Assembly: GCA_018266935.1 (NCBI GenBank)
Contig: JAFDZL010000495.1
Coordinates: forward strand, 1-34,179
Direction: 5' to 3'
From: Bacteroidota bacterium
GTDB taxonomy: Bacteria > Bacteroidota > Bacteroidia > Sphingobacteriales > Sphingobacteriaceae
Length of the DNA: 34,179 nucleotides
The notes under the pieces are model-generated. The model did not search any database and was not told where the DNA came from. It saw only the letters and a program-made list of their open reading frames with translations. Numbering within the stretch: position 1 is the first letter of the stretch; every line of letters begins with the position of its first letter. The position numbers were made by a program, and so were the translations under genes. Below are positions 10,317 through 17,116 of this stretch, piece after piece.

Positions 10317-10847
10317 TCATCCGCGCAGAAATTTTTTTTCGATCCGGTTCAATTGCTTAATGTGGTGATTTAAATGGATGAGGATGAATTTGAACCATTG
10401 CGCCGCGTTGAGCATGCCCATCCGCGGATGTTTCATCCGCTTGTTGATGGCGGAATCATGGATAAGCGGTGCCACTTCGGCTATACGTTTGCGGCATTTG
10501 ATGATGAGGTTGCGGGCATCTTCTTTGCTGATCTTTTTTGTTGGGGTCCTTTCCGCAATTGTTTTGGGCACTTTAACTTTTACCGGCGGGAATCGATTAA
10601 AGGTCAGCACAAACAACCCGATCAGGCTGCGACCCTTAGCGGTCGGCATGCAAATGCTGAGCGTACATTTCTCCAGCGCCATGCTCGAACCCAGCGTAGT
10701 TTGCATGATATGGCTGTAAACCTCGGCGTAAGACCAACCACCATCCGGTGGCGTCAGGTCGAACTGTTCGTCGGGGATAGTATCCAGCCGGCTGCGGTAA
10801 ACATCCAGGGCGGCCTCAATGGCTTTACGTTCAGCTTCGATCTTCAT
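10317..10847 (-). CDS. DinB-like family protein
   Basis: This 176-residue cytoplasmic protein resembles the DinB/YfiT-like four-helix family: an N-terminal helix (AIEAALDVYRSRLDTIPDEQ), then WSYAEVYSHIMQTT with a candidate metal-ligand His, and a C-terminal helix with MLNAAQWFKFILIHLNHHIKQ carrying more His residues. Family members bind a divalent metal through three His; several are thiol transferases but most are uncharacterised. The start is ATG 10845-10847. It is transcribed away from the plus-strand barrel gene, so 10848-10965 probably holds divergent promoters. The fold-level assignment is reasonable; the reaction is unknown. Confidence 0.7.
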   Translation of the reverse strand: MKIEAERKAIEAALDVYRSRLDTIPDEQFDLTPPDGGWSYAEVYSHIMQTTLGSSMALEKCTLSICMPTAKGRSLIGLFVLTFNRFPPVKVKVPKTIAERTPTKKISKEDARNLIIKCRKRIAEVAPLIHDSAINKRMKHPRMGMLNAAQWFKFILIHLNHHIKQLNRIEKKFLRG

Positions 10848-10965
10848 ACCCGCATTTTGTCAATAAAGTTACTCCTTTTGTCAAGTAAATCGGCATGATC
10901 GTATAATTCACCGAACAAGGCGCCCTTTTTGCCTTAGATTTATTTGACCTGATAAATCATTGATC

Positions 10966-11784
10966 ATGAAAAAGTTAATCCTTTTTTTATTTCTATTATC
11001 GATCTGTTCATCTGCGGCTATCGGGCAGGGCAATAATAAATTGCAGTTATCCGCAGGTTACTCCCACGGCTTTTTCAGCAGCTTTACCGGCGACGCTTAT
11101 AAAGAAACGTCAACTCTCGGCGGCGGATTCAGCGATACGGTCGGCAAAAAAATGTCGCATCAATTGAACGGGCTCGATATCTCAGGTGCTTACCGGCTTT
11201 CAGACTATTTCGCTGCGAAAGCAGGTTTTGGGTGGTTTAGCGGATCAGTAACAGGCAGTAATGTCCCGGGCGGTTCTTTCGGAAGGGGAAACGCGGACCA
11301 GCCCACCTATGTTTTTGTCGTACCCGGGTATTCCGTCCAGCATACCAAACAATCCTATCTTTCCTTTTTGGCAGGCGCCGAATACAGGGATTTCAAATCG
11401 GCACATAAGGTAAACCCATTTGCGCAATTGATGATCGGCGTAGGATTTGAAGGTACATCGTATGATCTCACCAACACCACTCACGCTATTATATATCAAA
11501 CCGAAAATTACAAAGCAACCGCAGTCGTGTTCAGTATCGATGCCGGGGCCGGGCTCGATTTAAAACTGAATAAAAATTTCGATATCCGTATCATCCAGGC
11601 AGACTTTGTGCCGACATTCCCCGGGAAAAAATACATACAGAAACGCGGCGATCTGCGCGGTCCGTTCCCGGGTACTTCTTTTCCCAATGATCGATTATAT
11701 ACATTACAGGATGTGACAACGGACACCGGTTTCCAGGCCAATTTCAGGCTTGGTGCAGGCATTGTGTTTACGCCGGATTTATAA
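10966..11784 (+). CDS. Outer membrane beta-barrel protein
   Basis: This 272-residue protein starts at ATG 10966 with signal peptide MKKLILFLFLLSICSSAAIG; a TTG six bases earlier is an inferior start. The mature part shows repeated amphipathic strands ending in aromatic residues (KLQLSAGYSHGFFSSF, AKAGFGWFSGSVTGS, FQANFRLGAGIVFTPDL), the pattern of a small 8-10 strand outer-membrane barrel like the OmpW/OmpA-barrel group. A middle portion (VQHTKQSYLSFLAGAEYRDF) reads like porin-type strand-turn sequence. No specific family or substrate is recognised. It converges on the 1239-residue gene; its stop overlaps the end of a HAD gene remnant on the opposite strand. Confidence 0.65.
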   Translation: MKKLILFLFLLSICSSAAIGQGNNKLQLSAGYSHGFFSSFTGDAYKETSTLGGGFSDTVGKKMSHQLNGLDISGAYRLSDYFAAKAGFGWFSGSVTGSNVPGGSFGRGNADQPTYVFVVPGYSVQHTKQSYLSFLAGAEYRDFKSAHKVNPFAQLMIGVGFEGTSYDLTNTTHAIIYQTENYKATAVVFSIDAGAGLDLKLNKNFDIRIIQADFVPTFPGKKYIQKRGDLRGPFPGTSFPNDRLYTLQDVTTDTGFQANFRLGAGIVFTPDL

Positions 11785-11841
11785 GAGCTGTATCAATTCT
11801 TTTAATTGCGTGATTTGCACGGGCACATCGCCAGTTTTCGG
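11780..11841 (-). pseudogene. Remnant of a YjjG-like HAD gene 3' end
   Basis: Read on the minus strand the last 20 codons before TAA 11780-11782 give PKTGDVPVQITQLKELIQLL. The intact HAD gene at 15691 ends PKPDDVHAQITHLKELTSLL, so 13 of 20 residues match. At DNA level the core at 11793-11820 is nearly identical to 15705-15732. An in-frame TGA lies directly upstream, and no other HAD sequence remains. The fragment sits between the stops of the barrel gene and the 1239-residue gene. It appears to be a displaced or decayed copy of the HAD gene end. Confidence 0.65.
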
Positions 11842-11853
11842 TCAATTCGTTTA

Positions 11854-14800
11854 TTATTCGACCTTATAACGGTAAACGCTCCTGCCGATATTGCCGTGGC
11901 CGTCGATGCCTTCTACGATCACGATGCAAGTGCCGCGCATGTCAGAATTAAAATAATCAAAAGACAGGTTACCGTCTTTATCCGGGACCATTTCAGGATT
12001 CCAGTAAATCGTCGGCCTTATATCCTGCGGACTTGTATCCCGTGGATGGTCATACCTCGGCGAGTAAAACTGACGGGGTTTATAAAATCCGTTCAGCTGA
12101 AATATAACCAGCCCCGGGGATGCCGCAGCCGGAGAACTTGACCTTTCACCGCCACGTTTGGTGGTAATAACGACCGCTCCACCCGCTGCCGCCGACCCAT
12201 ACAGCGCCAGATACGCTCCGCTTGAGAGCAGCTCGATACTGTATATGTCGTGTACACTTACTATATCATAAACATAATTTTGATTGGGCACAGGCACACC
12301 GTCAAGTATAAACAAAATTGGCGGGGTTGGCTGAAGATAAGTAGGGCTGAATTGGCCAAAATGTTCCGGGGTGCGAATTAGATACAATTTTCCCCTTTTT
12401 GAAATAGTACCCGGAAGCTTACCGAATAAACAAGGCAGATCGATGCAATTATCCAGTTGATCACCCACGAGCACGTAATTGGCATGCCCCGCTCCGTTCA
12501 GGTTGGCGGAATGCTGAAGCTTAAATGTTCCCGGATTGTTACGGGCTGATATTTGGACAGTCTTAAGATTGATAACCCTGGACAATGACGAACTTTTTTT
12601 TACCTGCTGATATCGTTCCTGCGCTAATACCGCATACTGTTGCGGAACAACGACACGGTATGTGTCCGTTGCGGTTACCGGCGGCGGCTGATCCTGGCTT
12701 ATGGTTACTTTCACGTCGCCGCTGTTATTGCCTTTGTGGGCTGAAACTATGACCGTGCTCGTGTCCGAAATATCAAGATTATCAAATTTAAAATTGCCCC
12801 CGGCATCGGTTATCGTATCCCTCACGATACCATTTTTGCCATCTAAAAAAACAACTTTGCCCTTGGGAACCGGTTTGCCGGATAATGTTGCAAGGGTTCC
12901 CGCCACCTCCAATGCGGTTTCAGCCTGAAATGCAGGCGCCGCGCCACTTCCGAGCACGGCCTTCCATTCAAAGCGCCGGTAACCCTGTGTAAGCATCAGC
13001 AGATCCAGGTCGTTGTGAGCATTTTGAGCATCGGACGCAAAGTAATAGTTCGGTTGTTCGACATAGCCTTTCAGATCGGGCGTCAGAAGCAGGTCAGTAA
13101 GTATCGTATGCTCACTATTTTCGTCGAAAGCTACCTGGTTGCCGTCGATCACTGACACTGAAAAATGGCCATCCACAGGCAATCCGGTATTTTTCGCGTG
13201 GAGACTGATCCTTATGTTTTCCCTTTTAGCGTACATCATCTTATCGCTGTGAATATCCAGATCGAGCAGGTCGTTATTCTTTATGAAGAACAACCGCTCT
13301 GCCAATGGTTCATTCGCGGAAGAAAATAGGGTGGCTCGCGCCACGCCGGTATGCAAATCATGAGTATCAATATCGATCGCAATAGTAAGTTCGTTCAGCC
13401 TGAAAACAGCTGGTATGGCTTCGCCGCCTGAATAAACCACGATACTAAACTCATTGTCCCTATTCTTTTCATAAAAAGCTTTATTGGCGCTTACTTTCAC
13501 TATTGCTTTTCCCGGCTGATCATTGTTTATGGAAAGCACCAGACCGTCGCTCCGGGGTTTGGGGAGGTCGATATCGATTTTTGCGCTATCCCTATAAGTT
13601 AATTCAGCCTTATAACTCTTATTCGGAGCCGGTTCCAAATAGAAATACCCCATTCCCAAATGCCGGGAGGCAAAATCGCAAACTTTGTTACCATTGTTAT
13701 CGGTAACAATACCTTGCACATCAACGCCAAGCCCGTTAGGGCCTACAGCTTTGAAGCCAACTTTTGACCTTATTCCTGCAACTAATTCACCGCCTTCCGG
13801 GAAAAATTGTATATCAATTTGGCTATTCGCAATGCCCGGGCTTATCACGCTCTCGGTGATCCGGCTATTTTTAACGACAGTAACCGGCACTTTTCTTTCA
13901 AAATATGCAGGCTCGGCTTCATTTTCAATTAACCTGGTATATGCCCTTATCCGATAGCCATCATTGTGAACGGAATCCGGTAAAGCAAAATCGCCCCAGG
14001 CTATACCATTGTTCAATTGCAGTTTGATGGATCTACCGACCTTGTTATTTGCATTGATCAGGTCGACATGCAGTATCTTGCTCATAGGTGACAATTTATG
14101 TTGCTCGCCTGTGGTTACGTAGGCCTTGAAATAAACTGTGTCACCTGCCGCGTACCATGGCCTATCCAACTGCAAGTGCACTTTTTCTACGGGATGAGCC
14201 GTCAAAAATGCTTTTAATTTATCCAGCAGGCTTTTTACAGCCTGTTCGCCGGAATTTGCTTCCAAAGACAAGGGTATTTCGTTATCGGCTTCAACTCCAT
14301 TAATAGGCAGGGATTGCTTGTCCTGATAATCCCATGGCAATAAACCCGCAACCTTCGCATTATCCATATACCCTTTGGTAAACAGGCCACCATTATAGCT
14401 ACCGTCCGGGTAAATGGTTATTTCATTTGCCGTCATTAAAGTGTACCGCAACTGATGAGCACTATTACTGCGCAAGTCGGTTTGCAAATTTTCCAGTGTA
14501 AATCCGCCGCCGTTTGCCGGCAGGTGGAACGGCATGCTTTTAGTGCCGCCATTGTCCGAATACTGTATCAACAGCGTATCCGGCAAGCGTAAACGCCCAT
14601 TATGGTCGGTGCTGATTTGTATATTTCTGTCCAGGTGTGCCGACGAAGTATCTTTAATAATATAATCAGGTTCACTTAATTCGTGGTCATAATATGCAAC
14701 CGTATCCCTATTTCCATTGGCAACCGAGGCGAGTGTAACTGTATTGACGTTCCTGTTTTCGAGATAAGCCTGCGCCCTGGCGCCGGATATCATGTGCAGT

Positions 14801-15573
14801 ATCCGCTGCTTCTCTGCATTGGGCCTCGCATGTATTGCAACTACCGCGAAACCTTTAGTGTTATAATTTTTCTGATATAACGCCCTGATAAAATCCATTT
14901 TCGAACCGCGGAAGGCAATGCCCCTGTTGGCGTCAAACTGCTTTTGTTCGGAAGCATCCGCCGGCTTTATATGCTCAAAAAATACTGTGATGTCACTCTG
15001 AAGCCGGAGCGTGGTAAATGAATAGGTAAACAAGTTCAGGTCGATCTTATAGACATAACCCAAAGCCCTGTTCTCCACGATTAATGTGCTGCGCGAGCTT
15101 ACTTTCAACTCGTTATCAGCACGGTTATAATGGAACGCAAGCACTTCAGGGTTTTTGATCACGCATTTCTTAGCGAAGGCCGAGGTACCTATAAAATAAT
15201 CGGTAAATAACCTATGCCATTTTCGCCATCCGCGCAGGGGATCGTTGACGATCACAACCTCGTCCAAAACGTTGGTCTTAGGTTCCAGGCTGATTGTGAG
15301 CTTTACCGGTATGGGGCCGGCGGTTAAGGTTATCACTTTTTTCTGAAAGGCGGTGTGTGATATTACCAGCTCGATCCTGCCGTTATAGTTGGTATTGAGG
15401 ATGAAAGCTCCGTTCGCATCGGTTACCGTTCCTATCGATGTATTGTTAATAAATACAGAAACATCGGGAATTGGCGTATTCGTAGCAGCGTTGACCACCT
15501 TGCCAGACACACTGATCTGGCCGTTGGCAGCTAATGCAAGGCATAAAAAACAAAAGACAAGGATAAGTTTCAT
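11854..15573 (-). CDS. Giant envelope protein: CarboxypepD_reg domain, MG2-like domains and TonB plug-like domain
   Basis: This 1239-residue protein has a signal peptide (1-18) and then a carboxypeptidase-regulatory beta-sandwich (20-97: VSGKVVNAATNTPIPDVSVF, GTVTDANGAFIL). Residues 110-427 resemble the body of a Bacteroidota family of about 430 residues (FIGTSAFAKKCVIKNPEVL, LIVENRALGYVYKIDL). From about 445 a second protein type begins: VEKVHLQLDRPWYAAGDTVY (462-481), a macroglobulin MG2-like entry, more beta-sandwiches, and near 1040-1150 a plug-like block (FILDGVPVPN, IYSIELLSSGAYLALYG, GAVVITTKRGG). No 22-strand barrel follows, so it is not a TonB-dependent transporter. The end is tandem TAA TAA. 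Probably periplasmic or outer-membrane associated; function unknown. Confidence 0.75.
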   Translation of the reverse strand: MKLILVFCFLCLALAANGQISVSGKVVNAATNTPIPDVSVFINNTSIGTVTDANGAFILNTNYNGRIELVISHTAFQKKVITLTAGPIPVKLTISLEPKTNVLDEVVIVNDPLRGWRKWHRLFTDYFIGTSAFAKKCVIKNPEVLAFHYNRADNELKVSSRSTLIVENRALGYVYKIDLNLFTYSFTTLRLQSDITVFFEHIKPADASEQKQFDANRGIAFRGSKMDFIRALYQKNYNTKGFAVVAIHARPNAEKQRILHMISGARAQAYLENRNVNTVTLASVANGNRDTVAYYDHELSEPDYIIKDTSSAHLDRNIQISTDHNGRLRLPDTLLIQYSDNGGTKSMPFHLPANGGGFTLENLQTDLRSNSAHQLRYTLMTANEITIYPDGSYNGGLFTKGYMDNAKVAGLLPWDYQDKQSLPINGVEADNEIPLSLEANSGEQAVKSLLDKLKAFLTAHPVEKVHLQLDRPWYAAGDTVYFKAYVTTGEQHKLSPMSKILHVDLINANNKVGRSIKLQLNNGIAWGDFALPDSVHNDGYRIRAYTRLIENEAEPAYFERKVPVTVVKNSRITESVISPGIANSQIDIQFFPEGGELVAGIRSKVGFKAVGPNGLGVDVQGIVTDNNGNKVCDFASRHLGMGYFYLEPAPNKSYKAELTYRDSAKIDIDLPKPRSDGLVLSINNDQPGKAIVKVSANKAFYEKNRDNEFSIVVYSGGEAIPAVFRLNELTIAIDIDTHDLHTGVARATLFSSANEPLAERLFFIKNNDLLDLDIHSDKMMYAKRENIRISLHAKNTGLPVDGHFSVSVIDGNQVAFDENSEHTILTDLLLTPDLKGYVEQPNYYFASDAQNAHNDLDLLMLTQGYRRFEWKAVLGSGAAPAFQAETALEVAGTLATLSGKPVPKGKVVFLDGKNGIVRDTITDAGGNFKFDNLDISDTSTVIVSAHKGNNSGDVKVTISQDQPPPVTATDTYRVVVPQQYAVLAQERYQQVKKSSSLSRVINLKTVQISARNNPGTFKLQHSANLNGAGHANYVLVGDQLDNCIDLPCLFGKLPGTISKRGKLYLIRTPEHFGQFSPTYLQPTPPILFILDGVPVPNQNYVYDIVSVHDIYSIELLSSGAYLALYGSAAAGGAVVITTKRGGERSSSPAAASPGLVIFQLNGFYKPRQFYSPRYDHPRDTSPQDIRPTIYWNPEMVPDKDGNLSFDYFNSDMRGTCIVIVEGIDGHGNIGRSVYRYKVE

Positions 15574-15611
15574 AGATGATTATTTAGGCGTTTAACAGGG
15601 CATTATATCCA

Positions 15612-15664
15612 TGTCACGGTGTGCGTGACACATAAGGCTTCGCTCTACGGTTTTAACGCGAAGC
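15612..15664. repeat. Two adjacent perfect hairpins between HAD and giant gene
   Basis: TGTCACG-GTGTG-CGTGACA (15612-15630) and GCTTCGC...GCGAAGC (15638-15644 with 15658-15664) are two perfect 7-bp stems seven bases apart. They follow the HAD stop and precede the giant gene start on the minus strand. They could end the HAD transcript, though no T tract follows, or be a dispersed repeat unit. Confidence 0.55.
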
Positions 15665-15690
15665 AATATAACTAATTTTTTAGTAATAAG

Positions 15691-16398
15691 TTATAGTAAT
15701 GAAGTCAATTCTTTTAAATGGGTGATTTGCGCATGTACGTCATCGGGCTTTGGCAGTCCGTTTGGGTTAAAATAAATGGCATCCATGCCAAAGTTCATAG
15801 CACCGTAAACGTCAGCTTCCAGGCTATCGCCGATCATCAGGCTTTCTTCAATAAAGGCACCGGCAAGGTTGATGGCATGCTCAAATATGCCCCTATGCGG
15901 CTTGTTATATCCTACTACTTCGGATATGATGACATGCTGAAAATATTTGGCGATATCCGTCCCCCCTATCTTAATGGTCGTTGATTCAAGAAAACCGTTA
16001 GAGATCAAATGCAGGTTGTACTTTGAGCTCAGGTATTGCAGCGTTTCATGTGCATCGGGGAAAAGGTTGGTTTTAGTGGGGCAAAGCTTTACATAGGCAT
16101 CCTCAAACCCTGCCGGTATCAGTTCGGGGCTCATGCCCAATTGCAAAAACGTTTGTTTGAAACGCGCCTCGCGCAGTTCATCCTTGGTGATCTTGCCTAA
16201 GTGATATTCCGCCCAAAGCTTATGATTGTTGCGGGTATAGGTTTCGATGAAAAGACCAGCCGAATCCAGGCCGAGCTCTTTCAACCCATAAATCCCGTAA
16301 AGTTCGTGCAAAGCCTCTTCCGCATTTTTATCAAAATCCCAGATGGTATGATCAAGGTCGAAGAAAAGGTGTTTATATGTCGAACTGCGGATGTTCAA
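15691..16398 (-). CDS. YjjG-family HAD hydrolase (noncanonical pyrimidine nucleotidase)
   Basis: This 235-residue HAD phosphatase has motif I FFDLDHTIWDFD (nucleophile Asp14, acid Asp16), motif II LHLISNGF, the motif III lysine in GYNKPHRGIFEHA, and motif IV LMIGDSLEADVYGA. The helical cap between motifs I and II and the phrase DHTIWDFDKNA fit the YjjG/TIGR02254 group, which dephosphorylates non-canonical pyrimidine nucleoside monophosphates. The start must be TTG 16396-16398, since an in-frame stop lies five codons upstream and motif I is already at residue 12. It lies next to upp, another pyrimidine gene. Its last codons are duplicated 3.9 kb away, beyond the giant gene. Confidence 0.82.
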   Translation of the reverse strand: MNIRSSTYKHLFFDLDHTIWDFDKNAEEALHELYGIYGLKELGLDSAGLFIETYTRNNHKLWAEYHLGKITKDELREARFKQTFLQLGMSPELIPAGFEDAYVKLCPTKTNLFPDAHETLQYLSSKYNLHLISNGFLESTTIKIGGTDIAKYFQHVIISEVVGYNKPHRGIFEHAINLAGAFIEESLMIGDSLEADVYGAMNFGMDAIYFNPNGLPKPDDVHAQITHLKELTSLL

Positions 16399-16468
16399 TT
16401 TCGATTTTTTTTAGATGGGCAAAACTACGCTTAAATCCGAAATTGAAATTTCGAAATTCGAAATCCTT

Positions 16469-17116
16469 CTAAATCATTTTCTCGCCATATGCCAGATCCC
16501 CCGCATCACCCAATCCCGGAACGATATACGCCTTCGAAGTCATTTCCTCATCCACAGCCCCAACCCAGATATGCGCCTTGGGCAGATGCGCCTTAACATG
16601 CTCGATGCCGATCGTGCTGGCAATGATTGCTGCTATGTGCAGTTCTTTAATGGAGAACATGGCCAGCAACTCCTTACATACATCTACCATACTTTGGCCG
16701 GTGGCCAGCATGGTATCACACATGATCAAAGTATGCCCGTCAAGGTTGGGCGTCGAGATATGATCGATATTGATGATAAAATCGCCGTTCTTTCGCACTT
16801 TGCGATAAGCAGTAATAAAAGCGGACGGCGATTTATCGAAATAGTTTAGAAAACCCTGGTGAAAGGGTAAGCCAGCACGTAAAATGGTGCCCAGCACCGG
16901 GTAGGCGACCGGCACGTTCACAGCGGCAATGCCCAGCGGTGTTTGCACCTCCACCGGCGTGTACTTCAGTTTTTTACTGATCTCGTAGGCCAGTATTTCA
17001 CCTAATCGTTCCTGGTTACGCCGAAACCTGGCCATATCCAATTGGGTATTGGCGTCGCGCAGTTCGGCGATGAACTGGTTGCCCAAAGTGTTGGTTTTGT
17101 TCAGTACGAAAAGCAT
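16469..17116 (-). CDS. upp: Uracil phosphoribosyltransferase
   Basis: This 215-residue enzyme makes UMP from uracil and PRPP in pyrimidine salvage. The PRPP-binding loop MCDTMLATGQSMVD, the preceding VLGTILRAGLPFHQGF and the C-terminal uracil-site stretch KAYIVPGLGDAGDLAYG are clear. ATG 17114-17116 gives MLFVLNKTNTLGNQFIAELR, where Bacteroidota homologues usually begin. The frame stays open for 42 more codons up to a GTG at 17242, but that extension (QKEKYLVRFQFKSF and so on) has no counterpart I know and is probably untranslated. It is divergent from uvrB. Confidence 0.92.
   Translation of the reverse strand: MLFVLNKTNTLGNQFIAELRDANTQLDMARFRRNQERLGEILAYEISKKLKYTPVEVQTPLGIAAVNVPVAYPVLGTILRAGLPFHQGFLNYFDKSPSAFITAYRKVRKNGDFIINIDHISTPNLDGHTLIMCDTMLATGQSMVDVCKELLAMFSIKELHIAAIIASTIGIEHVKAHLPKAHIWVGAVDEEMTSKAYIVPGLGDAGDLAYGEKMI

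Follow-up and report, generated by a model that had tools for sequence, protein, structure and literature searches.

The window analysed here, a stretch of 34,179 nucleotides, comes from a soil bacterium of the genus Mucilaginibacter, for which a draft genome of 554 contigs is available. We focus on the part that surrounds an intact HAD gene and a second, short HAD-like end some 4 kb away, which contains the following features.

10317 to 10847, minus strand: DinB-like gene (dinB), in many relatives directly 3' of HAD, with the HAD stop and dinB start overlapping.
10855 to 10879, minus strand: possible third, weak HAD-end remnant, AAAAGGAGTAACTTTATTG, just upstream of dinB; suggestive only, and missed by the tail model described below.
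10960 to 11784, plus strand: convergent gene of 274 aa with no Pfam or NCBIfam match; also found between HAD and dinB in the genomes G122 and G076.
11779 to 11847, minus strand: original 3' end of HAD, now displaced; it looks like coding sequence as far as 11841 and can be aligned as far as 11847, and its stop overlaps that of the convergent gene.
11848 to 15691, no strand: lineage-specific insert relative to the sister genome L065, 3.84 kb with one gene; boundaries good to a few bases.
11854 to 15573, minus strand: giant gene of 1239 aa, with CarboxypepD_reg-like and MG2/alpha-2-macroglobulin-like beta domains, and at the C-terminus a TonB plug that has a SusC signature but lacks a barrel.
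15574 to 15690, minus strand: new intergenic DNA that separates HAD from the giant gene, with a palindrome, ACTAAAAAATTAGT, and hairpins.
15691 to 16398, minus strand: intact HAD gene, a YjjG-type pyrimidine nucleotidase (TIGR02254, E 2.1e-56; Pfam HAD_2), whose present 3' end is 15691–15753.

The giant gene is a large new surface-protein gene, set at the extreme 3' end of HAD, a housekeeping gene. Its product has an N-terminus that is signal-peptide-like by eye, and the CarboxypepD_reg and MG2 domains score above cut-off; the Plug match falls slightly short (22.9 versus 23.9 bits) and the SusC signature is also below its cut-off. Residues 430–1239 were modelled with a pLDDT of 78, and Foldseek matches this model to bacterial A2M at E 3e-16 with low TM-scores, so that the predicted likeness to alpha-2-macroglobulins is at the domain level only. 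The CxEQ thioester motif is absent from the translated protein as read by eye. The family is represented by about 11–21 matches per genus genome searched, and the best full-length relatives genus-wide are only 39–41% identical. The 15574–15690 stretch contains strong hairpins on the minus strand (DNA folding z −3.65) and possibly serves as terminator and as promoter/operator of the giant gene. The palindrome TTACTAAAAAATTAGTTATA (15666–15689, minus strand), which precedes the giant gene, resembles DNA in front of other genes of the genus (L188, L191) and looks like a candidate repressor operator, perhaps of the BlaI/MecI-like type. The convergent gene occurs in 3 of 149 genus genomes, and its homologue in G122 is a tandem duplicate.

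The short fragment at the far side of the giant gene carries the central observation. Minus-strand 11779–11841 translates to PKTGDVPVQITQLKELIQLL followed by TAA (11779–11781) and, as the original prediction had noticed, it is in register with the HAD end PKPDDVHAQITHLKELTSLL-TAA at 15691–15753, matching in 13 of 20 residues and the stop. The near-identical DNA reported for the two ends is also present (24 of 26 bases between 11793–11818 and 15705–15730; blastn E 8.5e-5 within the window), and the giant gene does lie between them. This repeat is the longest direct repeat in 10800–16500 (37 nt, 81%); when the two ends are aligned over their last 60 nt, 40 positions are identical and the longest exact match is 13 bp. 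A tail model of 63 nt, built from 68 HAD ends of relatives with the window excluded, matches 11779–11838 at E 4.4e-10 in a whole-genome search and ranks it above several genuine HAD ends. The resemblance is not due to chance. Only 6–12 bp separate the giant-gene stop from the fragment, which has no evident coding role at present. An assembly artefact might be suspected in a draft of 554 contigs but is highly improbable, as a repeat only 67% identical over 60 bp is too divergent for a false join, and the flanking genes are intact and in ancestral order.

The closest genome by UvrB, UPRT and MPE is that of SZAS-82 (L065, G122:C64). There, UPRT-HAD abuts the homologue of 10960–11784 directly, stop over stop, and the giant gene is absent. 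Window positions 10954–11847 align to L065 without a break, 11781–11847 covering L065's HAD end, so that with the sister genome as reference the match to a HAD end stretches to about 11847; the window from 15692 onward aligns to the same L065 HAD end. The two alignments place the insert at 11848–15691, make it a lineage-specific gain, and identify the fragment as the original HAD end, still at its ancestral position. Among relatives in the genus, most loci in which dinB and a metallophosphoesterase can be placed have these two genes next after HAD, often with the HAD stop overlapping the dinB start, and the giant gene is absent beside HAD in all 80 named loci examined. An empty site exists, and the pre-insertion arrangement survives in the sister species. 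This supports the earlier suggestion that DNA entered at the 3' end of HAD and shifted the old end across to the other side. The other proposal, a tandem duplication that decayed, finds no support as a duplication of HAD plus giant gene: apart from the tail there is no second HAD, the block is absent in relatives, and none of their examined HAD loci contains the giant gene.

Displaced HAD ends are not confined to this window. Across the 149 genomes, tail-model matches outside HAD at E below 1e-3 comprise, apart from the window, two displaced ends near HAD and one match inside a valS-like gene (G006:C202), the latter dismissed as chance and setting the noise level. Both additional ends are on the strand of HAD, a short way downstream of it, with unrelated inserts, bringing the genomes with a second HAD end to 3 of 149. 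In G076 the second end lies 454 bp from HAD, before a hicB-like frame (E 9e-8), and direct reading of the insert finds a small convergent ORF. In SG564/G022 it lies 179 bp from HAD and runs into the dinB start (E 2.7e-4); here the insert (SG564, L073), within 207 bp after HAD and between HAD and dinB, is palindromic and REP/MITE-like, with 15-bp inverted ends GTGTCATTTCGACGA/TCGTCGAAATGACAC. The shortest inserts are about 0.2 kb. In both genomes the displaced end is closer to the ends of other species than to the intact end alongside. Tail models of nine neighbouring control genes, put through the same analysis, yielded no displaced ends; apparent extra tails for UPRT, UvrB, u22872 and c5541 were attributed to these genes themselves being truncated or frame-split, partly at contig edges. 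Tail-like matches before dinB in L089, L105, L128, L118 and L125 were set aside as too weak, an old HAD end and a conserved promoter being inseparable there. The HAD 3' end has been the spot of such displacement at least three times. As a separate observation, the HAD-dinB gap varies between −3 and more than 2,700 bp and has the look of a gene-turnover spot, and HicB-like frames seem to begin just after HAD in several species (L148, L064, L083, L112, L114, L130).

The original prediction had also thought of an integrating element supplying a replacement end, while seeing no integrase. The two-ended anatomy holds and recurs in two other genomes. The element itself does not emerge: integrase, transposase and tRNA were not found in the window, no recombinase is present among the window proteins scanned, and the ends lack an att-like identical core. 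A remnant of an integrase-driven element, one whose attachment site is the 3' end of HAD and which supplies the replacement end, would account for the two-ended anatomy and for the reuse of the same gene end with different cargo. We nevertheless regard it as improbable, since no integrase is evident inside the G076 and SG564 inserts either, the longest identity that could serve as an att core is 13 bp, inserts go down to about 0.2 kb, and a second end occurs in just 3 of 149 genomes.

The divergence of the two ends bears on where the present HAD end came from. On a basis of 60 bases, fragment and intact end differ at 20, distributed 4/5/11 over the codon positions and thus coding-like; the genus-wide mean between the HAD ends of two species is 18.6/60, with 27/20/53% by codon position. 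The ends of 16 other species match the fragment as well as or better than the intact end does. The score of the fragment falls within those of genuine ends and is equivalent to about 4–8 neutral changes. Counting against this comparison, besides its short length, is that a score as high as the fragment's or higher arises after 10 neutral changes with p 0.018 when starting from the intact end and p 0.11 from high-scoring ends generally. As the fragment scores like genuine ends though already different, the simplest reading is late displacement of an already-different end, in which the incoming DNA would have supplied its own HAD end. A difference of the size seen between two species, combined with little decay of the old end, favours a divergent HAD-bearing donor over local duplication.

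We consider it somewhat better than an even bet that the block, the gain of one gene at the 3' end of HAD in this lineage, was brought about by a donor HAD end and one-sided homology. In the incoming DNA, the giant gene would have lain directly behind a HAD end. On one side it would pair with the resident HAD through homology; on the other, a non-homologous join would form inside the last ~22 codons of the resident HAD, just past the giant gene's stop. The donor would in this way supply HAD with a full end and deliver the giant gene whole, and the resident HAD end would keep its place next to gene 10960, still overlapped by that gene's stop codon. The product would be one of homology-facilitated one-sided (illegitimate) recombination, for which an integrase is unnecessary and which is documented in transformable bacteria (PMC6382021). 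Besides the comparison of ends given above, here and in G076 and SG564, further observations support this route. First of all, there is an empty site, 11781–11847 aligns unbroken, and no relative examined has the giant gene beside HAD. Second, recurrence is seen only just downstream of HAD and in none of the nine controls. Third, integrase, transposase and tRNA are all absent.

A foreign origin of the HAD end is not, however, demonstrated, as vertical descent with the sister genome is not rejected by trees of the whole HAD, its N-half or its C-half (AU p 0.46–0.69). GACGTA and GCG codons occur both in the intact end and in that of the sister; this is in keeping with native descent and speaks against the donor route. 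Xenologous replacement of the whole HAD, considered with protein and DNA trees, is neither supported nor rejected, and as to a donor, no match in the genus was found for the HAD-giant intergenic DNA, nor, in a giant-protein search, for HAD followed by the giant gene. With the trees neutral and a donor not found, local duplication thus remains a serious rival, to which we assign a lesser though appreciable probability. Here, slippage or templated repair would first have duplicated the HAD end, the giant gene would then have inserted between the copies by any route, and both copies would have diverged, the spare one freely. Besides the trees and the codons shared with the sister, it draws on CAAATC and TTAAAAGAATTG, which are common to intact end and fragment and uncommon in the genus. 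It requires two events, however, and sits poorly with 20/60 differences in a coding-like pattern and a spare copy so little decayed.

A further property of the HAD end concerns dinB. The motif TAnnTTT(A/G) lies 9–16 bp (mostly 12–13) before the dinB start in 29 of 35 genomes in which HAD overlaps or nearly touches dinB, and upstream of dinB in 18 of 33 with the two genes >20 bp apart; it precedes 1.8% of all ATGs as background, and was found upstream of the next gene in 0 of 69. The motif matches the Bacteroidota −7 element, located at −12 to −5 (PMC6847099), and in most relatives dinB is thus probably almost leaderless, with its promoter within the last codons of HAD. In many relatives (L064–L148, 80+ genus loci), HAD's last codons contain the element TAACTTTA, 12–13 bp upstream of where dinB starts. 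Such a promoter would explain the HAD-end sequence kept with dinB in SG564; it would not explain the window fragment, which faces the convergent gene. That HAD ends carry a probable dinB promoter in many relatives could also suggest that the second end serves in regulation, as promoter or terminator, and merely resembles a HAD end. We give this hardly any weight for the window, where the fragment lacks TAnnTTTA, faces a convergent gene, matches over 20 codons plus the stop, and aligns unbroken to the sister's HAD end. A broader proposal is offered tentatively, and we think it rather unlikely as a whole: the yjjG 3' end in Mucilaginibacter would be a recurrent, integrase-free insertion spot where, owing to the overlap with the dinB promoter, an insertion survives only if a HAD end is left on either side of it, so that gene gain systematically results in a duplicated, gradually decaying gene end.

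Taken together, the locus records a genuine gene gain, specific to this lineage, in which the end of a gene was displaced; it is unusual in lacking visible element machinery, its ingredients being ordinary. It provides a polarised example of how one large gene enters a tight junction between genes with no mobile element in sight, the pre-insertion state being kept in a sister species. Furthermore, recurrence in three lineages makes it testable whether overlapping gene ends, with shared coding and promoter sequence, filter the insertions that survive.

In comparison with known systems, the giant protein shares with Bacteroidota alpha-2-macroglobulin-like and SusC-like proteins the CarboxypepD_reg and MG2-type beta domains, TonB plug and SusC signature, but has no beta-barrel and no CxEQ thioester motif in its sequence. 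As for transposons and IS elements, no transposase, terminal inverted repeats or short target duplication were found for the window insert; the SG564 insert does have its 15-bp inverted ends. Integrative elements use the 3' ends of tRNA genes or protein genes as insertion sites, and our locus resembles them in the complete end on the target gene, the old end on the far side, the reuse of one gene end and the empty site in relatives. It differs in having no recombinase (the insert's only gene is the giant gene), no identical att repeats or core (40/60 identity, 13 bp exact at most) and inserts that are single-gene or very short. Homology-facilitated illegitimate recombination is another parallel, inferred here from a natural locus: under the proposed route, our arrangement would share with it one homologous anchor, one non-homologous join and the entry of foreign DNA without an integrase.
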